The notes beneath the pieces are model-generated. The model did not search any database, was not told the DNA's origin, and saw only the letters and a program-made list of their open reading frames with translations. A stretch of 54,169 bases of DNA from Acidobacteriota bacterium (GTDB lineage Bacteria; Acidobacteriota; Vicinamibacteria; Fen-336), in contig QHVJ01000155.1 in NCBI GenBank assembly GCA_003222275.1, forward strand, positions 1-54,169, read 5' to 3'. Both the position numbers and the translations under genes were made by a program. Shown here piece by piece: positions 4,460 through 25,720 of the stretch. Position 1 is the stretch's first letter, and each line of letters starts with the position of its first letter.

Positions 4460-5584
4460 ATGGCAAAGCGGATGATCATCACCCTGGCCGCCGTGGCCGC
4501 GTTCCTCACGGCCATTGGCTTCATCAAGTTCCGGCAGATCCAGACGGCCATCGCGCAGGCATCGTCCTTCCAGCCGCCGCCCGAGGCCGTCACCACGGTC
4601 GTGACGCGCCAGGAGCGGTGGGCGTCGACGCTCTCCGCGATCGGCACGACGGCCGCGGTTCACGGCGTCACCGTCAGCGCCGACCTGCCCGGTGTCGTCG
4701 AAGCGATCTCCTTCGATTCCGGCCGCGCGGTCCAGGCGGGCGACGTGCTCGTGCGGCTCGACACCCGGCAGGAGCAGGCTCAACTGGCCGCGGCCGAGGC
4801 CCAACGCGCCCTGGCCCGTCTCAACCTCGACCGGGCGCGCGGGCTGCGCGAGGAAGGGATCATCTCGCAGGCGGACTACGACCGGGCCAACTCCGAGAAC
4901 GACCAGGCTCAGGCGAGGGTGGGAGAGATCCGCGCCACCATCGCCCGCAAGACGATCCGCGCGCCGTTCGCCGGGATCCTGGGCATCCGGCAGGTGAACC
5001 TCGGCCAGTACCTCACCGGGGGCGCGGCGATCGTCCCCCTGCAATCGCTGGACCCGATCTACGTGAACTTCTCGGTTCCGCAGCAGGAGGTGGGCCAGCT
5101 CCGCGCGGGCGTCGAGGTGCGCGTGTCGGCCGAAGGCATCGCGCGCCCGTTCGAGGGCCGCATCACGGCCGTCGACTCGATCGTGGACGAAGCGACCCGC
5201 AACGTCCAGGCTCAAGCCACGCTCCCGAACCGTGAAGGCCGGCTGCGCCCGGGGATGTTCGTGCAGGCGGAGGTGCTCGTGGGCACGAGCAGCGCCGTCG
5301 TCGCGCTGCCGACCTCGGCCGTCGCGTATGCGCCCTACGGCGACTCCGTCTTCGTCGTCGGCGACGTCAAGGGGCCCAAGGGGGAGACGTTCCGCGGCGT
5401 GCGCCAGCAGTTCGTGAAGCTGGGGGGCGAGCGCGGCGACCAGGTCGCGGTCGTCTCCGGCCTCCAGGCGGGCGAGGAGGTCGTGACCTCCGGCGTCTTC
5501 AAGCTCCGCAACGGCGCGGCCGTCCACATCAACAACGACGTGCGGCCCGCGAACAACCCCGCCCCGAAGCCCGAGGACAACTGA
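4460..5584 (+). CDS. RND efflux periplasmic adaptor (HlyD/MFP family)
   Basis: The 374-residue adaptor links an inner-membrane RND pump to an outer-membrane channel. An N-terminal membrane anchor (about residues 5-24) is followed by a lipoyl/hairpin region: SADLPGVVEAISFDSGRAVQAGDVLVRLD is the first lipoyl half, a helical hairpin covers about residues 105-155, and RAPFAGILGIRQVNLGQYL is the second half. Beta-barrel and membrane-proximal domains follow. The ATG is preceded by GGAGGT at good distance. The stop codon overlaps the pump's ATG (TGATG), so the two are translationally coupled. No outer-membrane factor gene is present here. Confidence 0.95.
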   Translation: MAKRMIITLAAVAAFLTAIGFIKFRQIQTAIAQASSFQPPPEAVTTVVTRQERWASTLSAIGTTAAVHGVTVSADLPGVVEAISFDSGRAVQAGDVLVRLDTRQEQAQLAAAEAQRALARLNLDRARGLREEGIISQADYDRANSENDQAQARVGEIRATIARKTIRAPFAGILGIRQVNLGQYLTGGAAIVPLQSLDPIYVNFSVPQQEVGQLRAGVEVRVSAEGIARPFEGRITAVDSIVDEATRNVQAQATLPNREGRLRPGMFVQAEVLVGTSSAVVALPTSAVAYAPYGDSVFVVGDVKGPKGETFRGVRQQFVKLGGERGDQVAVVSGLQAGEEVVTSGVFKLRNGAAVHINNDVRPANNPAPKPEDN

Positions 5585-14639: not shown

Positions 14640-15085
14640 ATGTGGATCGTCCGGCTCGCGCTACGGCGGCCCTACACGTTCGTGGTGGCGTCACTCCTGG
14701 TCGTGATCCTCGGCGCCCCCACGATACGGGAGACGCCCAAAGACATCTTCCCCACGATCGACATCCCGGTCGTGAGCGTCGTATGGACCTACACCGGCCT
14801 CTCCACCCAGGACATGGAGAAGCAGATCACCACTTTCAGCGAGTTCTCCACGTCCTTCGCGGTGAACAACATCAAGAACATCGAGTCCCAGACGCTCAAC
14901 GGCGTGGCGGTGGTGAAGATCTACTTCCAACCCGGCGTCGACGTCGCGGCGGCCGTGACTTCGGCCACGAGGTCGAGGTGGTGAGCGGCTTGGGCGGTGA
15001 ACAGCTCCTGATCTCGAGCCCCGGCGACCGGCTGGTGGAAGGCCAGACCGTGCAGGTGGCGGCGTCCGCCGTCAAGACGGACTGA
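14640..15085 (+). pseudogene. RND efflux pump N-terminus joined to an adaptor C-terminus (deletion remnant)
   Basis: From the ATG at 14640 about 105 codons encode a typical RND pump N-terminus: TM1 (LALRRPYTFVVASLLVV), then PKDIFPTIDIPVVSVVW and the porter start ending FQPGVDVAAAV. At about 14956 homology switches to a second frame that reads DFGHEVEVVSGLGGEQLL and ends at TGA 15083-15085, which is the C-terminal end of an HlyD-type adaptor. The pump frame itself stops at 14984. A single deletion in a pump-adaptor operon would give this structure, removing most of the pump and the start of the adaptor. The upstream TetR operator survives. Confidence 0.8.
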
Positions 15086-15090
15086 CGACC

Positions 15091-15801
15091 ATGCTCGGCG
15101 AAAAAATGGAGCGCCGCCGCGCCGCGAACGCTTCTCGCCGCAAGCGCGTGGAGCAGATGACGGAAGGCGAAAAGATGCGCGCGCTGCTCACCGACGAGCT
15201 GACGGGGCTCGGGAACCGGCGCGCCTGGGAGGAGGGCAGTCGGCGCCCCGTCCAGGCCATGCTCGACGTCGAGGGCCTGAAGTGGGTGAACGACAACCTC
15301 GGGTGGGCGGCCGGGGACGAGCTGCTGCGGGCGGTCGCGGCCGCCATCCGCGAAGAAGGCGTCGTCGGCTACCGCCTCGGCGGGGACGAGTTCGTCTTCG
15401 AGGCCGAGGACCGGGCTTCCGTCCAGGCTGCCATCGATGGGATCACGCGGCGCCTGGGTGCGGCCGGTATCGAGGCGACGCTTCCGGATGGCCCGACCAG
15501 GCGATTGAAAGGAGCCCGGGTGCACGCGGGGATCGGCCGATCGCTCGACGAAGCCGACGCCGCCCTCAACTCCGCGAAAAAGGCCGGTATCGCGGCCGGA
15601 GAGCGGGCCGAGCGTGGGGACCGGCCTCGTGGCTTGTCGGAAGTGAGGGTCCTGCCGTTCTCCAAACGGGCGGAGCCGCGCGACCTCCGTTTCTTTCTCC
15701 GGGCGTTCCGCGAGGCGGATCCGGACTTCGGGGAAGAAAAGGACGCTGACACGGGCGGCAATATGATGAGCCGGGAATGGCTCATCCGGAACATGCGCTG
15801 A
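15091..15801 (+). CDS. Stand-alone GGDEF-domain protein (putative diguanylate cyclase)
   Basis: A 236-residue cytoplasmic protein consisting of a short basic N-terminus, a compact GGDEF domain (about residues 33-165) and a C-terminal tail of about 70 residues. The N-terminal DELTGLGNRRAWEE, the metal aspartate in MLDVEGLKWVNDN, and an intact RLGGDEF signature (GGDEF at 97-101) indicate possible c-di-GMP synthesis. There is no sensor, membrane helix or receiver domain. The domain is shorter than usual between the GGDEF loop and the C-terminal helix. It follows the RND remnant by only 5 bases and may be read from the same transcript. Confidence 0.8.
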   Translation: MLGEKMERRRAANASRRKRVEQMTEGEKMRALLTDELTGLGNRRAWEEGSRRPVQAMLDVEGLKWVNDNLGWAAGDELLRAVAAAIREEGVVGYRLGGDEFVFEAEDRASVQAAIDGITRRLGAAGIEATLPDGPTRRLKGARVHAGIGRSLDEADAALNSAKKAGIAAGERAERGDRPRGLSEVRVLPFSKRAEPRDLRFFLRAFREADPDFGEEKDADTGGNMMSREWLIRNMR

Positions 15802-18071: not shown

Positions 18072-19043
18072 GTGCCGGAAGCCACGGAGCCGCGATGGCT
18101 GCTCCTGATCCACCAGATCCCGCCGAGGCCGGCCTACCTCCGGGTCAAGGTCGGCCGGCGGCTGCAGGGCCTCGGCGCCGTGCCGATCAAGAACTCCGTG
18201 TACGTGTTACCGCGCAGCGAGCAGGCCCTCGAGGACTTCCAGTGGGTCCGGCGGGAGATCGTCGCGGGCCACGGCGACGCCACCGTGTGCGAAGCGCGAT
18301 TCGTAGAAGGACACTCGGACACGGACGTCGAGGCCCTGTTCACGGCCGCGCGAGACGCCGAGTATGCGTCGCTGGCCGAGGACGCCCGCCGGCTGGAGCG
18401 TGCCCTCATCGGTTCCAAGAGGCGCGCTCCGATCGGCGCCGAGCCGGCGAGGCATCCGCTCTTGCGCTTGCGCAAGCAGCTCTCCGACGTCATGGCCATC
18501 GATTTCTTCGGCGCCTCGGGACGGGAGGCCGTCGAAGGGCTGCTGGTGGGAATCGAGGCCCGGCTGCGCCCGGCGCCGGCGCAAGCGGACGTCCAGAAGA
18601 ACGTGTCGGCTGATGGTATCCGCGGTCGCACCTGGGTGACGCGGCGCGGCATCCAGGTCGACCGGATCGCCAGCGCGTGGCTCATCCGGCGCTTCATCGA
18701 CCCGGAAGCGCGGTTCAAGTTCGTCCTGGGCCATGAGTACGCGCCGGGGGCCGGCGAGCTGCGTTTCGACATGTTCGAGGCGGAGTTCACCCACGACGGG
18801 GACCTCTGCACGTTCGAGGTGCTGCTCCGCCATTTCGGCCTGAAAGAGGCCGCCCTTCGGAGCCTGGGCGAGATCGTCCACGACATCGACCTCAAGGACG
18901 CGAAGTTCGCCCGGCCGGAAGCCCTCGGTCTCGACGGTCTGATCGCGGGCATTGCCATGCGACACAAGGAGGACGAGGCCAGGCTCGCAGAGGGCGCGGC
19001 GGTGTTCGATTCGCTGCACGCCTACTTCAAGAGGAAGCGATGA
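18072..19043 (+). CDS. chrB: Chromate resistance regulator ChrB
   Basis: A 323-residue full-length ChrB. The N-terminal half has the pattern PPRPAYLRVKVGRRLQGLGAVPIKNSVYVLP typical of ChrB_N. The C-terminal half contains GIQVDRIASAWLIRRFIDPEARFKFV and a central EAEFTHDGDLCTFEVLLRHFG, the ChrB C-terminal domain. In characterised systems ChrB senses chromate and controls the efflux pump ChrA. The start is a GTG with no clear ribosome binding site (CCTCCC precedes it). The stop overlaps the next gene's ATG (ATGA), so this and the cyclodeaminase-like gene are coupled. Confidence 0.93.
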   Translation: MPEATEPRWLLLIHQIPPRPAYLRVKVGRRLQGLGAVPIKNSVYVLPRSEQALEDFQWVRREIVAGHGDATVCEARFVEGHSDTDVEALFTAARDAEYASLAEDARRLERALIGSKRRAPIGAEPARHPLLRLRKQLSDVMAIDFFGASGREAVEGLLVGIEARLRPAPAQADVQKNVSADGIRGRTWVTRRGIQVDRIASAWLIRRFIDPEARFKFVLGHEYAPGAGELRFDMFEAEFTHDGDLCTFEVLLRHFGLKEAALRSLGEIVHDIDLKDAKFARPEALGLDGLIAGIAMRHKEDEARLAEGAAVFDSLHAYFKRKR

Positions 19044-20059
19044 CGGCGGCCGAGGTGCGACGTCGCCCCGCGCCGGAGACGCTCATCCTGACCCGGCGCG
19101 ACGTCCAGGCCCTGCTTGGCTTCGACGAATGCATCTCCGCGGTGGAAACGGCCTTTCGCCTCCACGCCGAAGGGCGAAGCCTGGCGCCGGGAGTCCTGGG
19201 TGTCCCTTCGCGAGCGGGAGGCTTCCATATCAAGGCCGCGGGTCTGGAGAGGGGCCGCCTTTACTTCGCGGCCAAGACCAACGGCAATTTCTCGGGCAAC
19301 CCTCGCCGGCATGGCCTGCCGGCCATCCAGGGCGTCATCGTTCTCTGCGACGGCGAGGACGGCCGTCCGCTCGCGGTCATGGATTCGATCGAGGTGACGA
19401 TCCGACGCACGGCCGCCGCCACCGCCGTCGCCGCGAAGTCGCTCGCGCGGCCCGACGCCAAGGTGGTCACCATTTGTGGCTGTGGCAACCAGGGCCGGGC
19501 GCAACTGCGGGCTTTGACTCGCGTGCTGCCCGTGGAGCGGGTCCATGCCTTCGATGCGGAGGAAGCCACGGCGCGAGCCTATGCCCGCGAGCTGGGCGAC
19601 GAGCTGCGACTGGACGTCAGGCCGGTCGCGGATCACGTGAAAGCCGTTCAGAGCAGCGATGTCTGCGTGACCTGCACGCCGTCGCGGCAGCCCTTCCTCT
19701 TCCGCGACCACGTCAAGCCGGGGACATTCATCGCGGCCGTGGGCGCCGACAGCGCGGACAAGCACGAGATCGACGCCGGGCTGATGGCCGCGAGCGTGAT
19801 CGTGACGGACGTTCTGGATCAGTGCGCCTCGTTCGGCGACCTCCATCATGCGATCGGCGCGGGTGTCCTCACCCGGGAGAGCGTGCATGCCGAGCTCGCC
19901 GACCTGGTCACGGGTCGGAAGCCGGGGCGCAGGTCGACGGAGGAGATCACGCTCTTCGATTCAACGGGCACCGCATTGGAAGACGTCGCCGCCGCCGCGG
20001 TCGTCTACGAGAAGGCGGTGGCGGCGGGCGTTGGCTTGACGGTGGCGCTCGGAGGGTGA
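19040..20059 (+). CDS. Ornithine cyclodeaminase / mu-crystallin family protein
   Basis: The 339-residue protein belongs to the OCD/mu-crystallin family of NAD(P)-dependent enzymes (ornithine cyclodeaminase, alanine or ketimine reductases). The Rossmann motif ICGCGNQGRAQLRAL, the preceding RRTAAATAVAAKSLA segment, and C-terminal VTDVLDQCASFGDLHHAIGAG and ITLFDSTGTALED are typical. The ATG overlaps chrB's stop codon, so it is part of the chr operon rather than an amino-acid pathway cluster. Its real substrate is unclear. An NAD(P)H-dependent role linked to chromate or its reduction products would be an inference from context only. Confidence 0.9.
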   Translation: MTAAEVRRRPAPETLILTRRDVQALLGFDECISAVETAFRLHAEGRSLAPGVLGVPSRAGGFHIKAAGLERGRLYFAAKTNGNFSGNPRRHGLPAIQGVIVLCDGEDGRPLAVMDSIEVTIRRTAAATAVAAKSLARPDAKVVTICGCGNQGRAQLRALTRVLPVERVHAFDAEEATARAYARELGDELRLDVRPVADHVKAVQSSDVCVTCTPSRQPFLFRDHVKPGTFIAAVGADSADKHEIDAGLMAASVIVTDVLDQCASFGDLHHAIGAGVLTRESVHAELADLVTGRKPGRRSTEEITLFDSTGTALEDVAAAAVVYEKAVAAGVGLTVALGG

Positions 20060-20244: not shown

Positions 20245-21870
20245 ATGAGCGGGTCCGTCGACGTCCGCGAGCGTCAGCCGTTCACGCTCCGCGAGTTGCT
20301 GCTCTACTTCCTGCGGCTCGGCACCACCGGCTTTGGAGGACCGGTCGCGCTCGTCGGATACATGCAGCGCGATCTGGTGGAGGAGCGCGGATGGTTCACA
20401 CCCGAGGAGTACCGCGAGGGCCTCGCGCTGGCGCAGCTCGCGCCCGGACCCCTCGCCGCCCAGCTCGCCATGTACCTGGGCTGGGCGAAGGGCAAGGCGG
20501 CCGGCGCCGCCCTCGTCGGCCTCGCGTTCGTGCTGCCGTCGTTTCTCATGGTGATCGCGATCGCCGTGGCCTACCTGCGCTTCGGCGGCTTGCCTTGGAT
20601 GCGGGGCGCGTTCTACGGGATCGGGGCCGCGGTCATCGCCATCATCGCGCGGAGCGCGGTGAAGCTGACGCGGCTCACGCTCGCCGCCGACCGCTTGCTG
20701 TGGGCGATCTTCGGGGTGGCCGCGCTGGTGACGGCGTGGACCGAATCGGAGGTCATCTGGATCTTCGTCGGCGCAGGAGTCATCGTTCTGCTGGTGCGAG
20801 CGAGGCCCTTCGCCCGGGCCCGCACGGTCCTGGCCGTCGGCCTCTTGCCCTCGGGATTGCTCGCCGGCCTCACCGGGCATCCGGCGTCGGCGGCGACGCT
20901 TTGGCGAATCGCGTGGTATTTCGCCGAGGCGGGCGCGTTCGTCTTCGGCAGCGGCCTGGCGATCGTCCCCTTCCTCCACGCCGGCGTGGTGCAGGAGCTC
21001 CACTGGCTCGATGAGCGCCAGTTCCTGGACGCGGTGGCCGTCGCGATGATCACCCCCGGCCCGGTCGTGATCACCGTGGGCTTCATCGGCTACCTCGTCG
21101 CGGGCTTTGCGGGCGCGCTCGTGGCCGCCCTGGCGACGTTCCTTCCGTGCTATCTATTCACCGTGATCCCCGCCCCGCACTTCCGGCGCCTGTCGCAGAA
21201 CCGGTCCCTGAAGGCGTTCGTGGACGGCGTCACCGCCGCCGCCACGGGCGCCATCGCCGGAGCCGCCTTCGTCCTCGGACGGCGCGCGCTGGTGGACGTG
21301 ACGACGTTGGCGATCGCTCTCGGGGCGCTGCTCGTCCTGACGCGCTTCAGGCGCGTGCCCGAGCCGTTGCTCATCGCGGCCGCCGGCGTGCTCGGCATCC
21401 TGGCCGCGGGACCATCGCATGGCGCAGATGGAAGTACAGCGAAGGGCGAGGCCAAGCCGCCGCTGGTCGTATTCGTCTGCGAGCACGGATCGGCCAAGAG
21501 TCTCGTCGCCGCGTCGTTCTTCGAACGCATGGCCAAGGAGCGCGGAATGCCAGCGCGCGCCGTTTCGCGCGGCACGTCCCCCGATGCGTCGGTGCCTGCG
21601 CCTGTGGTTCAGGCGCTTCGCGAGGATGGCTTCGACGTCGCGGCGTTCAGGCCACAGCTCCTGAGCGACGCGGACGTCACGGCCGCGGCTCGCGTCGTGG
21701 CGATCGGAGTCGACATCGGGGCGGCGAAGACACTGGCCGGGACTCGGTTCGAGCGTTGGGACGACGTACCTCCGTTCTCCCAGAGCTATCCCAAGGCCCG
21801 CAAGGTCATCCTGTCGCGGGTAGATTCCCTTCTCCGAGAACTGGAACCGGAAACGCGAAAGGGTCGTTGA
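20245..21870 (+). CDS. chrA: ChrA chromate efflux pump fused to a low-Mr phosphatase/arsenate-reductase-like domain
   Basis: Residues 1 to about 390 are a two-halved CHR-family chromate exporter: FLRLGTTGFGGPVALVGYM and LAQLAPGPLAAQ in the N-half are repeated as AGAFVFGSGLAIVPFL and MITPGPVVITVGF in the C-half. After the last helix and a flexible linker (about 390-406), residues 407-535 form a low-molecular-weight phosphotyrosine phosphatase/ArsC-like domain with P-loop CEHGSAKS (C412-S419) and a WDDVPP motif (D506/D507). The P-loop has lysine where classical enzymes have arginine, as in a known sub-group. There is no stop or frameshift between the parts, so a true fusion is likely. The start at 20245 has only a weak GGCGG upstream. 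Confidence 0.88.
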   Translation: MSGSVDVRERQPFTLRELLLYFLRLGTTGFGGPVALVGYMQRDLVEERGWFTPEEYREGLALAQLAPGPLAAQLAMYLGWAKGKAAGAALVGLAFVLPSFLMVIAIAVAYLRFGGLPWMRGAFYGIGAAVIAIIARSAVKLTRLTLAADRLLWAIFGVAALVTAWTESEVIWIFVGAGVIVLLVRARPFARARTVLAVGLLPSGLLAGLTGHPASAATLWRIAWYFAEAGAFVFGSGLAIVPFLHAGVVQELHWLDERQFLDAVAVAMITPGPVVITVGFIGYLVAGFAGALVAALATFLPCYLFTVIPAPHFRRLSQNRSLKAFVDGVTAAATGAIAGAAFVLGRRALVDVTTLAIALGALLVLTRFRRVPEPLLIAAAGVLGILAAGPSHGADGSTAKGEAKPPLVVFVCEHGSAKSLVAASFFERMAKERGMPARAVSRGTSPDASVPAPVVQALREDGFDVAAFRPQLLSDADVTAAARVVAIGVDIGAAKTLAGTRFERWDDVPPFSQSYPKARKVILSRVDSLLRELEPETRKGR

Positions 21871-21885
21871 GCTGTCGTGACCCTC

Positions 21886-22527
21886 TCAGCGCCCCTCGAC
21901 TGCGAAATCGTCGAACTCGATCACGGAATCCGCCTTGGTCCAGAGCCCCACCTTGCCTGCGTCCCTGAACGTCTCGTCGGTGCCGTCGTAGACCCTGTTA
22001 CCGTCGCAGAAGACGGTGAAGTGGCTTCCTGATGCGTCGAGTTTCATCGTGTGCCACGTGTTCTTCGACACCTTGATGTTCTGGCCACCGAACTGACGGC
22101 GGCGGCCCTCGACGACGTGGTAGATCCGGCAGTTATCCTCCAGAGCGTTGCAGCGAGCGACATAGTAGTTGTTGGCGTCTTTGTAGCGCCATAGCAGCCC
22201 GAAGCCCTGGTCGACCTCGCCGGCGAGCGGGCGGGCCCGGACGCTGAGCGACACGTCCTTGTAGGTCCCGTCCTTGACGACGGCGACGGGGAACCGGTAA
22301 TCGGTCTTGTCCGCGCTCTCCTGAACGAGGACGTGGTTCGTGGTGCCGCCCTTCTCGAGGCGCACCACCCACTTCCCTTCGGGCCCGCTTCCGGTCCGGC
22401 CGAACTCGAAGCCAGCGGGCGGAGACCCAATCGCATCGGACTCGAAATCCCTCTTCACCGGCTCAGCCGCGAACCCCATTGCCGAGATGGCACAGACGAC
22501 CGCCAGAACCATGGCCGGGCACTTCAT
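21886..22527 (-). CDS. Secreted DUF1080-like (3-keto-disaccharide hydrolase-like) protein
   Basis: The 213-residue product has a signal peptide (about residues 1-21, ending FAAEP) and a single concanavalin/jelly-roll domain typical of DUF1080 and related glycan-binding or 3-keto-disaccharide hydrolase proteins. Diagnostic segments include QGFGLLWRYKDANNYYVARCNALEDNCRIYHV, TWHTMKLDASGSHFTVFCDG and GKVGLWTKADSVIEFDDF. Two cysteines (NALEDN region) may pair. AGGGAGG (rev. comp. of 22530-22536) is upstream. It is divergent from the response-regulator gene and shares the repeat-bearing intergenic region, and converges with chrA at 16 bases. Catalytic function is not certain. Confidence 0.75.
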   Translation of the reverse strand: MKCPAMVLAVVCAISAMGFAAEPVKRDFESDAIGSPPAGFEFGRTGSGPEGKWVVRLEKGGTTNHVLVQESADKTDYRFPVAVVKDGTYKDVSLSVRARPLAGEVDQGFGLLWRYKDANNYYVARCNALEDNCRIYHVVEGRRRQFGGQNIKVSKNTWHTMKLDASGSHFTVFCDGNRVYDGTDETFRDAGKVGLWTKADSVIEFDDFAVEGR

Positions 22528-22685: not shown

Positions 22686-23375
22686 ATGGCAGTGCATATC
22701 CTGGTCGTCGAGGACGAGACGAAGGTCGCGCGCGCCCTCAGCGAGGGTCTCGCCCGTGAAGGCTACGAGGTCACCGTGGCGAGGACGGGGGAAGAAGGCT
22801 ACTACCTCCTGGACGCGCGGTCCTTCGACCTCGTGGTGCTCGATCTGATGTTGCCCGGCCGCGACGGCCTGGAGATCCTCGCCACGTTGAGGAGCCGCGA
22901 CCGCGGGATCCCGGTTCTGATCCTCACCGCTCGGGACGCCGTGGAGGACCGCGTCGTCGGCCTCGACGCCGGCGCGGACGACTACCTGGTCAAGCCGTTC
23001 GCATTCCCGGAGCTGTCGGCGCGCATCCGCGCTCTCCTGCGCCGTGGCCGCGCCGAACAATCCTCCCGCCTGCAGGTGGCGGACCTGGAGGTGGATGTCG
23101 CCGCGCGGCGGGTGACGCGAGGGGGCAGGATACTCGAGCTGACCGCCCGGGAGTTCGAGCTGCTCGAGTATCTGCTGCGAAACCGCGGACGTGTGGTGTC
23201 GCGCGAGATGCTCTCGCGGGACGTCTGGAAGGAGGCCGGCCGGGCGACGCCTCTCGACAACGTGATCGACGTCCACATCGCGCGCCTTCGCCGAAAGGTG
23301 GACGAGGCCTTCGACGTTAAGCTCATCCATACCGTCCGCGGGGTGGGCTTCACGGTAAAGGAAGCTGCGTCGTGA
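22686..23375 (+). CDS. OmpR-family response regulator (CusR/CopR-like)
   Basis: A 229-residue regulator with a receiver domain (phosphoacceptor D53 in VVLDLMLPGRDG; ED near residues 9-10; K in LVKPF) and a C-terminal winged helix. The sequence LLEYLLRNRGRVVSREMLSRDVW, then NVIDVHIARLRRKVDE and LIHTVRGVGFTV, closely follows the CusR/CopR heavy-metal subgroup. It overlaps the kinase gene by 4 bases (GTGA) and heads a run of co-oriented genes to about 28960. Tandem CTGAAGACT repeats upstream probably mediate autoregulation. The signal is unknown, though metal or envelope stress would fit. Confidence 0.93.
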   Translation: MAVHILVVEDETKVARALSEGLAREGYEVTVARTGEEGYYLLDARSFDLVVLDLMLPGRDGLEILATLRSRDRGIPVLILTARDAVEDRVVGLDAGADDYLVKPFAFPELSARIRALLRRGRAEQSSRLQVADLEVDVAARRVTRGGRILELTAREFELLEYLLRNRGRVVSREMLSRDVWKEAGRATPLDNVIDVHIARLRRKVDEAFDVKLIHTVRGVGFTVKEAAS

Positions 23376-25720
23376 CGATGCGGTGGCGCCCCCAACATGT
23401 CCGGACACGGCTCACGCTCTGGTACGTAGGGGTCCTGTCGGCCGTGCTCGCGCTGTACATCGTCTCGACCCTGCTCTTCGTCTACGTCTCCCTGCGCCAG
23501 CAGCTCGATGAGCGCCTGCGGGCGGAGTTCGAGAGGGTGGAGGACCGCCTCGCCGAACCGTCCGGCGGAACGATCGGCATCGACGGCCACGACGAGGAAG
23601 GCGTACCGGCGAGCCTCGTCGAAGTCTGGTCCCCGGAGGGGGCGGTCCTGTATCGCAGTGCATCGCTCCGCGGCGAGGCGCTCGCGCCCGCGTGGCCGAC
23701 CACGACTCGGGACGATTGGTCGTTCACGTCGCTGAGACTACGGGACGGGACTCCCCTCCGCGTGCTGAGCCATGCCTATGGCGTCTTGGGTCGCCGGGTG
23801 GTGATCCGGGTTGCGGCCAGCGAGGAGCGTCTCCGTCACGAGTGGCGCGAGCTGTCGGTCGGGCTCCTGTTCGGGTTGCCGGTGGCGGTCGCGATCGCCG
23901 GCCTCGGAGGGCACTGGCTGGCCCGCCGAGTTTTGGCGCCCTTGGGCCGGATGGCCCGGCGTGCAGAGCGGCTGACCGCTGACAACCTTGGGGAACGGCT
24001 TCCGGTCGAGAACGCCGACGACGAGATGGGTCACCTGGCCCGAGTCTTCAACGCGTCGCTGGCCAGGATCGAGGAGTCGTTCGCTCAGCTCCGGCGCTTC
24101 ACCGCCGATGCCTCTCATGAGCTGCGGACTCCCCTCACCGCGATCCGCGCCGTGGGTGAAGTCGCGCTGCAGGAGCACCAGGACCCAGAGCGGTACCGCG
24201 AGGCGATCGGCAGCATGCTCGAGGAGGTAGACAGGTTGTCTCGCCTCGTGGCCAGCCTTCTCTTCCTCTCGCGAGCGGACGCCGGCCCCGTCCTCCGCTG
24301 CGTGAAGCGGGGGCTGCTCGAGTTGGCCCGGGAAACCGCGGCGTTGCTCGAGATTCTCGCGGAGGAGAAGGGCCAGCGCATCGAGGTGGGCGGCGACGAC
24401 GGCGTGATGGCGGAGGTCGACGGCCTCATCTTGCGCCAGGCCCTCATCAACCTGATCGACAACGCGATCAAGTACTCGCCACGCGGCGGCTGCATTCGGA
24501 TCACGGTCCGAACCAATTCCGAGGGCGCGGCCAGCGTCGAGGTCGCGGACGAGGGGCCCGGTATCCCGGAAGGCCACCGCTCCCGCGTCTTCGATCGTTT
24601 CTACCGTGTCGACACGTCGCGGTCGCGCGAGGGGGGCGGTGCGGGTCTCGGACTCGCGATCACCCTTTGGGCCGTCAAGGCCCACGGCGGGCGGATCGAG
24701 CTCGACAGCGAGGAGGGGAGAGGGAGCACGTTCCGGATCGTGCTCCCGGCGCTCTCCAGCTCGACTCAATCCATGCCACAGGAACGTCCAAGAGAAAGAG
24801 GTGAAGTCATGCGTACAGTGGTCATTCTCGCCGCCTGGCTCGGATTCATCGCTGTTGACGTTCGCGCGCAAGCGCCGTCTCCGGCCGGCCTCGACACGAA
24901 TCGGATCGAGTCGCTCACGGGCGCGAAGGGCGCTCTCGATGAGAAGGAGGGCGTCTTCAAGGTGTCCGTCCCGCGAGCCGATCTCGCCGTGACCGCCGCC
25001 GGTGTCCGAATGACGCCACCCCTGGGCCTGACTTCTTGGGCGGCCTTCAAGCGGGCGGGCGGCCACGTGATGGTCATGGGGGACCTCGTCCTCCTGGAGG
25101 ACCAGGTGAACCCGGTCATGAGCGTGGCCCTCGACGAGGGGCTGGAGGTCACGGCCCTGCACAACCACTTCTTCTGGGACACGCCGAAGGTGATGTTCAT
25201 GCACATCGGCGGCAGCGGCGAGGAAGCCGCGATGGCTTCGGCAGTCGGAAAGGTGTTGGCGAAGATCAAGGACACCGCCGGAGGAAAGGGCGACGTGCCT
25301 CATGCAGAGATCGATCCCTCGCAGACGACGCTGGACACCAGCAAGATCGAAGCGATCCTGGCGAACAAGGGGAGCCTCGGCTCGGGCGTCTACAAAGTGA
25401 CCATCGGCCGGACCGCCCGCATGCACGGCCAGGAGGTTGCGGCCACCATGGGCGTGAACACCTGGGCGGCCTTCGCGGGTTCGGACCAGCGCGCGGTCGT
25501 GGATGGAGACTTTGCCATGCTCGAGTCGGAGCTCCAGAGCGTGTTGAAGGCGCTCCGACACGCCGGCATCAACGTCGTGGCCATACATCAACACATGGCG
25601 GGTGAGGAACCACGGATCGTCTTCCTCCACTACTGGGGCGTGGGTCCCACCGACGTCCTCGCCCGGGGGGTGCGAGCGGCTCTCGACCAGACGCGGCACG
25701 AGGGAGACCGGGCGAGGTAA
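23372..25720 (+). CDS. Sensor histidine kinase continuous with a C-terminal DUF1259 (LppY/LpqO-like) region
   Basis: One uninterrupted 782-codon frame. Residues 1 to about 470 are a two-helix membrane histidine kinase of the heavy-metal-sensor type: TM1 at about 16-38, periplasmic loop, TM2 near 163-180, HAMP, phosphoacceptor H249 in DASHELRTPL, N-box NLIDNAIKYS, and G-boxes ADEGPGIPE and GAGLGLAI. The kinase ends normally at FRIVLPA, but no stop follows. After a 19-residue linker the frame continues into residues 480-782: a signal-peptide-like segment (MRTVVILAAWLGFIAV) and two DUF1259 repeats. The internal ATG at 24809 has its own GAGGTG ribosome site, so a separate exported DUF1259 protein may also be made. 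The overlap GTGA couples it to the response regulator. Confidence 0.85.
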   Translation: MTMRWRPQHVRTRLTLWYVGVLSAVLALYIVSTLLFVYVSLRQQLDERLRAEFERVEDRLAEPSGGTIGIDGHDEEGVPASLVEVWSPEGAVLYRSASLRGEALAPAWPTTTRDDWSFTSLRLRDGTPLRVLSHAYGVLGRRVVIRVAASEERLRHEWRELSVGLLFGLPVAVAIAGLGGHWLARRVLAPLGRMARRAERLTADNLGERLPVENADDEMGHLARVFNASLARIEESFAQLRRFTADASHELRTPLTAIRAVGEVALQEHQDPERYREAIGSMLEEVDRLSRLVASLLFLSRADAGPVLRCVKRGLLELARETAALLEILAEEKGQRIEVGGDDGVMAEVDGLILRQALINLIDNAIKYSPRGGCIRITVRTNSEGAASVEVADEGPGIPEGHRSRVFDRFYRVDTSRSREGGGAGLGLAITLWAVKAHGGRIELDSEEGRGSTFRIVLPALSSSTQSMPQERPRERGEVMRTVVILAAWLGFIAVDVRAQAPSPAGLDTNRIESLTGAKGALDEKEGVFKVSVPRADLAVTAAGVRMTPPLGLTSWAAFKRAGGHVMVMGDLVLLEDQVNPVMSVALDEGLEVTALHNHFFWDTPKVMFMHIGGSGEEAAMASAVGKVLAKIKDTAGGKGDVPHAEIDPSQTTLDTSKIEAILANKGSLGSGVYKVTIGRTARMHGQEVAATMGVNTWAAFAGSDQRAVVDGDFAMLESELQSVLKALRHAGINVVAIHQHMAGEEPRIVFLHYWGVGPTDVLARGVRAALDQTRHEGDRAR
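24809..25720 (+). CDS. DUF1259 (LppY/LpqO-like) protein from an internal start
   Basis: The 303-residue product that would start at the in-frame ATG at 24809 inside the kinase frame, preceded by AGAGGTG seven bases upstream. It has a cleavable-looking signal peptide (to about residue 22, ending VRAQ) and two copies of the DUF1259 unit: LDTNRIESLTGAKG...SWAAFKRAGGHVMVMGD...ALHNHFFWDTPKVMFMHIGG, and LDTSKIEAILANKG...TWAAFAGSDQRAVVDGD...AIHQHMAGEEPRIVFLHYWG. The matched histidines in both copies suggest metal or cofactor binding, but the family has no proven activity. Whether this form, the kinase fusion, or both exist cannot be settled from sequence. Confidence 0.7.
   Translation: MRTVVILAAWLGFIAVDVRAQAPSPAGLDTNRIESLTGAKGALDEKEGVFKVSVPRADLAVTAAGVRMTPPLGLTSWAAFKRAGGHVMVMGDLVLLEDQVNPVMSVALDEGLEVTALHNHFFWDTPKVMFMHIGGSGEEAAMASAVGKVLAKIKDTAGGKGDVPHAEIDPSQTTLDTSKIEAILANKGSLGSGVYKVTIGRTARMHGQEVAATMGVNTWAAFAGSDQRAVVDGDFAMLESELQSVLKALRHAGINVVAIHQHMAGEEPRIVFLHYWGVGPTDVLARGVRAALDQTRHEGDRAR

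Follow-up and report, generated by a model that had tools for sequence, protein, structure and literature searches.

The chrA fusion gene and its neighborhood

The window, by which we mean the whole 54,169-nucleotide stretch of soil-bacterial DNA analyzed here, contains a single open reading frame of 541 residues (20245..21870, ATG start; forward strand, as for all window features below unless stated) that encodes the chromate transporter ChrA joined in frame to a second domain of the low-Mr phosphatase (LMW) type, as the preliminary description had proposed. Pfam recognizes two stretches of Chromate_transp (PF02417; 273 bits, E 1e-81) and, at residues 408–487, LMWPc (27.0 bits against a gathering cut-off of 23.2). 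The ChrA part (residues 15–387; 20287..21405) comprises two CHR repeats and matches TIGR00937 over residues 22–384 with 377 bits (cut-off 171.7); the paired Chromate_transp domains and this score assign it by sequence to the long-chain ChrA proteins. AlphaFold2 (AF2) models its helices between residues 15 and 387, mostly with pLDDT values of 85–97. The last ChrA helix (residues 373–387; 21361..21405) is followed by a linker of low pLDDT (residues 388–403; 21406..21453) and by the LMW-PTP/ArsC-fold domain, which forms the last 138 residues (404–541; 21454..21867) and carries the P-loop CEHGSAKS (Cys412–Ser419; 21478..21501). The fusion gene is real and intact in this assembly, and the window sequence contains no N anywhere. 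It was seen once, and the main caveat is that its source is one unreplicated draft assembly of 628 contigs.

Upstream lie chrB (18072..19043; ChrB_N and ChrB_C, 159 and 50 bits in Pfam), of a chromate-responsive regulator family, and a gene of the ornithine cyclodeaminase/mu-crystallin family (19040..20059; Pfam, 239 bits) that overlaps chrB by 4 nt. Downstream, on the reverse strand, a gene for an exported 3-keto-disaccharide-hydrolase-like protein (21886..22527) was assigned from a sub-threshold Pfam match and its recurrence beside LMW family genes. Pfam identifies the next gene as the response regulator of the cluster (22686..23375), followed by a histidine kinase that runs in frame into a ChrL-like DUF1259 domain (23372..25720), DUF1259 being the LppY/LpqO family. 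The DUF1259 part has its own Shine-Dalgarno-like site (AGAGGTGAAG), an ATG at 24809 and a signal peptide, and is therefore probably made separately. Elsewhere in the window, a cut-short RND-type N-terminus of 114 residues (14640–14984) precedes an open reading frame with GGDEF-like motifs recognized by eye (15091–15801); together these are possibly a disrupted efflux gene.

Fold and P-loop of the attached domain

Since the joint ChrA and LMW multiple alignment was misaligned, two separate models were made, one of the LMW domain by itself and one of the whole fusion protein with ChrA relatives only. Modeled alone, the domain adopts the LMW-PTP/ArsC fold with a pLDDT of 91. Its nearest solved structures, by sequence as well as by fold, are the Corynebacterium glutamicum ArsC enzymes Cg_ArsC2 (PDB entry 3rh0, the best Foldseek match) and Cg_ArsC1′ (3t38), and phosphatases such as YwlE are also among the Foldseek matches. 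The full-length model has low confidence over its LMW part (pLDDT 27–65) and gives no basis for domain contacts; a Foldseek search with this whole model returned nothing below E 0.001. The ChrA model matched SLC26/sulfate transporters weakly (E 0.02–0.14, above the usual threshold), perhaps through a distant fold relation.

Fold and P-loop Cys place the domain in the LMW-PTP/ArsC superfamily, in which the P-loop positions tetrahedral oxyanions at a reactive Cys. The CX5R(S/T) signature of the LMW protein phosphatases is replaced by CX5K-Ser in the window, and nearly all family members have Lys at this position. The phosphatase Asp general acid of the DP(Y) motif is likewise missing: the WDDVPP sequence of the window puts Pro where 3t38 has DP, the alignment column is not conserved as an acid, and the Asp-Pro pair is not conserved across the family. 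Cys412 is the sole Cys of the domain, which thus lacks the three-Cys relay of thioredoxin-coupled ArsC enzymes; some relatives have one or two more. CX5K is also the P-loop pattern of the arsenate reductase Cg_ArsC2, and the combination of P-loop Cys, CX5K and no relay appears compatible with a thiol-dependent ArsC of the Cg_ArsC2 type. In its putative activity the domain most resembles a single-Cys P-loop protein of the ArsC/oxyanion type. The low-Mr phosphatase/ArsC relationship put forward in the preliminary description stands, but the domain is not an ordinary ArsC, having one Cys and a CX5K P-loop and belonging to a separate clade. In two relatives, one fused to DUF1259 (L134, 3343–4674) and one standalone beside chrA (L032, 3890–4396), Pfam also matches the P-loop half weakly to PTS_IIB (lactose/cellobiose), a domain with a comparable Cys loop.

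A sparse and mostly exported family

A family profile of 20 rows, the window domain among them, separates members in genomes of the same class (159–177 bits) from the next matches (at most 72.5 bits). The window domain scores 177 bits and retains all invariant family residues; together with the pLDDT of its model, this makes it more than a chance open frame. Members are sparse, occurring in 12 of the 193 class genomes (E < 1e-45) and 14 of the 396 phylum genomes. In further samples, with the seed genome included in each count, the family was found in 9/200 genomes of the order of G543, 3/200 of the phylum of G544 (recorded as Gemmatimonadota), 2/201 of the phylum of G547 and 1/349 of the phylum of G545. 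No NCBIfam model matches the members tested. In a phylogenetic tree the family stands apart from three ArsC copies with 100/100 support, and the window copy is without a well-supported nearest relative. The P-loop Cys, Gly, basic residue and Ser are conserved, Lys being the rule at the basic position and Arg the exception.

A simple hydropathy rule assigns a signal-peptide-like start to 28 of the 32 standalone members, in agreement with the earlier proposal that the fusion joined ChrA to an exported enzyme. The exceptions are L037, L043, L113 and L163, and L114 passes only doubtfully; the L113 copy sits in a ChrB-LMW-ChrA cluster. Judged from sequence, the attached domain is a member of a distinct, mostly exported and undescribed family. 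The window copy lacks a signal peptide of its own, and its delivery outside the membrane would fall to ChrA, whose C-terminus is predicted to be periplasmic. Another membrane-linked form is encoded at L046 (3875–4762), where the LMW domain carries a C-terminal hydrophobic extension with a weak DUF5683 match below cut-off.

Linkage to chromate-resistance genes

Genes for ChrA, ChrB or DUF1259 lie within 4 kb in 19 of 38 family loci, five of the 19 being those with DUF1259 fused to the domain, and in one of the 20 loci of ordinary ArsC genes (P 4e-4 by Fisher's test). This P value serves as a guide only, because the control loci all come from the same class while the family loci come from several phyla and are related by descent, and because the flanking sequence is uneven in extent. 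Some family loci entered the set through a scan with the window's own domain. Adjacent genes occur in both orders, LMW then ChrA in four loci (G003, L039, G448 and G399) and ChrA then LMW in two (L032 and G251), and in G670 a broken LMW copy is followed by a short ChrA-like piece. DUF5916, 3-keto-disaccharide-hydrolase-like, YncE-like and two-component genes also recur near the family, and all are present in the window. Half of the family loci have no known chromate gene nearby. In one of the other settings (L049, 5932–9802), the LMW gene lies beside a glycosyltransferase gene and an 823-residue open reading frame with a TIGR04282 arsenosugar-type domain; in another (L141), it lies near a soxC-type sulfite dehydrogenase gene. 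Arsenate, a theme of the preliminary description, is not borne out by the linked loci, which point to chromate instead.

The same domain forms the C-terminal part of DUF1259 proteins in five genomes (L134, L135, L136, L137 and L139). In the tree the L134 domain does not group with the other four, albeit with no strong support, so this fusion may have arisen twice. A third fusion type (L142, 5937–7610) is an FG-GAP/β-propeller protein with a signal-peptide-like start and the LMW domain at its C-terminus. Literature searches found neither the DUF1259 nor the ChrA fusion to an LMW domain, and no paper on ChrA fusions.

The recurrence of two-component genes bears on the possibility that the domain is a periplasmic phosphatase or an oxyanion sensor, which would dephosphorylate or bind some envelope component and so tune the pump or inform the two-component system without changing chromate chemically. 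A response regulator and a histidine kinase adjoin the family in the window, L033, L035 and L039, and a response regulator does so in L032. The LMW-PTP fold and the YwlE-type phosphatases among the structural matches would suit this role, and a non-catalytic fused sensor could do without a thiol donor. Phosphatases of this fold, however, use the Asp acid and the CX5R Arg, of which the first is unconserved here and the second is almost always Lys, and the best structural matches are ArsC enzymes rather than phosphatases. We consider a phosphatase or sensor unlikely.

The junction and the origin of the fusion

The region between the two domains had been read as a possible signal peptide. The segment in question, LLIAAAGVLGILAAGPS, is ChrA's own C-terminal helix, matched at the DNA level to a same-genus chrA remnant that ends in VIAVAGSLGILIGGPSPP and a stop codon. 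In that same-genus genome (G001, L056) the chrA end is intact and reads VPEPLVIAVAGSLGILIGGPSPP before the stop, and the DNA alignment identifies VPEPLLIAAAGVLGILAAGPS of the window as the same sequence. The signal-peptide-like appearance of the junction is therefore mainly that of ChrA's last helix, and a signal peptide donated by the partner was rejected, the segment being homologous to the ChrA C-terminus. Standalone relatives mostly begin with such a segment of their own, which the fused copy lacks. Internal initiation, by which the domain would be translated on its own, is also unlikely: the stretch ahead of the P-loop has neither an in-frame ATG nor a Shine-Dalgarno-like site, and only GTG and TTG codons without a clear Shine-Dalgarno site occur in or beside the last helix. 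The L056 remnant itself (4661–4895) results from an internal deletion that leaves only the two ends of chrA, with DUF1259-like sequence directly after it.

No second ChrA-LMW fusion was found among 198 relatives, 193 class genomes and 396 phylum genomes, or in the samples around G543, G544, G545 and G547. A tblastn search for spread on plasmids gave only ArsC-type matches of roughly 30% identity, and a phage search with a relative as query gave none. Within these sets the exact ChrA fusion is thus unique to this assembly, a result that the preliminary description would have counted against its proposal. The domain is nevertheless repeatedly fused or adjacent to chromate-resistance genes in other genomes, and for that reason the uniqueness of the ChrA fusion no longer makes the chromate link a matter of chance: the fusion itself was seen once, but the link of the domain to chromate resistance recurs.

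Occurrence in one of all searched genomes would fit an accidental origin, in which either the assembly was misjoined or a deletion recently merged two neighbors, with no coupling beyond that of separate genes. In L032, from Candidatus Solibacter, 28 nt separate the end of chrA (3861) from the start of the LMW gene (3890) on the same strand, and a single deletion in such a layout would yield the fusion. Third-position GC content (GC3) is unequal between the two halves of the window gene (0.92 and 0.77), and chrA has decayed in the same-genus genome. Against an accident, the frame is intact and all invariant family residues are kept, a whole signal peptide cannot vanish through a small indel error, a single suitable helix remains at the join where that peptide would be, and fusions of this domain to exported partners have arisen repeatedly. 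On balance, a merely accidental fusion seems quite unlikely.

Membrane topology

To assign loops, 32 ChrA sequences were divided at the helix boundaries of the AF2 model and the Lys and Arg residues of each loop were counted. Loops 45–55, 80–90, 138–151, 184–214, 306–321 and 365–374 have K/R counts of 1.56–2.94 and were assigned to the cytoplasm; loops 110–119, 164–173, 250–258, 284–293, 343–354 and the C-terminal tail have counts of 0.03–1.06 and were assigned to the periplasm. If each repeat is read as containing a broken helix and a re-entrant pair, ChrA is predicted to cross the membrane ten times with both ends outside. Literature searches found no paper on experimental ChrA topology; the topology of Pseudomonas aeruginosa ChrA determined by experiment reportedly has the C-terminus in the periplasm. 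A published TMHMM prediction for Shewanella ChrA likewise gives ten helices and an external N-terminus (PMC5699817).

On the positive-inside counts and the ten crossings, the fused domain is most likely periplasmic, as the preliminary description had suggested, and on the same side as its standalone relatives. The last ChrA helix, delimited by the AF2 model, the positive-inside counts and the same-genus chrA end, would stand in for the partner's missing signal peptide. A cytoplasmic, ordinary ArsC-like reductase coupled to efflux, with the pump receiving or co-exporting the processed oxyanion, is very unlikely. In its favor, ArsC is cytoplasmic, a single-Cys copy there could draw on a low-Mr thiol, and the ChrA-linked copies L113 and probably L114 have no clear signal peptide. 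Against it, the C-terminus is set outside by the positive-inside counts together with an even number of crossings, and most family members and both other fusion types look exported.

Proposed function

Our best reading, which we hold tentatively and at slightly less than even confidence, is that the attached domain acts in the periplasm as a thiol/oxyanion module of chromate-resistance clusters and is held in the window protein to the ChrA pump. Transporters of the ChrA family export chromate through the inner membrane, and chromate thus expelled can re-enter through sulfate transporters. In the fusion protein, ChrA would move chromate out across the inner membrane, and its last helix, ending on the periplasmic side, would place the single-Cys domain at the mouth of the pump. 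Most probably, the P-loop would catch outgoing chromate and either start its thiol-dependent reduction or hold it, so that captured chromate would be unable to return via sulfate uptake. Having no second Cys, the domain would need a thiol donor from outside. The periplasmic side, chromate as the ligand and the thiol chemistry are all inferred in this scheme.

Several observations support this chromate reading: the linkage of the family to chromate genes compared with ordinary ArsC loci, the fusions to DUF1259 and FG-GAP proteins, and the adjacency to ChrA in both orders. The signal-peptide-like starts, the positive-inside counts and the ArsC matches, with CX5K in 3rh0, are consistent with it. 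Against it stand the family loci without a chromate gene nearby, the TIGR04282 and soxC-type neighbors (once each), the standalone copies without a signal peptide, the unconserved Asp-Pro acid and the lack of a resolving Cys in the window copy; an oxidizing periplasm is also an awkward place for a thiol reductase, and the ChrA fusion comes from one draft genome only.

A broader proposal, which we regard as somewhat unlikely, is that the proteins of this sparse yet widespread family, exported and of the LMW-PTP/ArsC fold with a single Cys, partner ChrA and ChrL in the periplasm as part of an efflux-coupled unit that reduces or traps chromate, the window gene being a fused form that reveals the contact. 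We know of no biochemical role for either ChrL or the LMW family. If the proposal is true, the cycle of chromate re-uptake would be countered directly by a pump that bears a Cys domain for oxyanion binding on its outward-facing side. The fusion of one domain to ChrA, to a ChrL-type DUF1259 protein and to an exported propeller would also provide testable contacts for the accessory proteins of chromate resistance, and the fused domain could serve as a topology marker for ChrA.

Comparison with known systems

Like other long-chain ChrA proteins (TIGR00937/PF02417), the window protein has both CHR repeats and the FGGP/PGP motifs, with chrB upstream. The long-chain relatives examined end soon after the last helix, whereas the window protein adds a C-terminal domain of approximately 150 residues.

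A further chromate cluster for comparison is that of Arthrobacter FB24, in which full resistance needs accessory genes (PMC2751784). Among these, chrL encodes an LppY/LpqO protein that is described as having a signal sequence and probably a membrane anchor; chromate induces it 15- to 95-fold, and its loss noticeably lowers resistance (PMC2751784). In the determinant as in the window, genes for ChrA and ChrB cluster with one for a DUF1259 protein, but, unlike the window, the eight-gene Arthrobacter determinant has no LMW/ArsC-like gene listed (PMC2751784).

With Cg_ArsC2 (3rh0) and Cg_ArsC1′ (3t38) the window domain shares the fold and the nucleophilic P-loop Cys, and with 3rh0 also CX5K. It differs from both in being only about 21–26% identical, in its predicted export or membrane tethering, in having no resolving Cys and no conserved Asp-Pro acid, and in belonging to a clade apart from the ArsC copies tested. 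The low-Mr phosphatases YwlE, PtpA and LMPTP likewise have the fold and the Cys P-loop in common with the window domain, which in contrast to them carries CX5K in place of CX5R, lacks the conserved Asp acid and is predicted to be extracytoplasmic.
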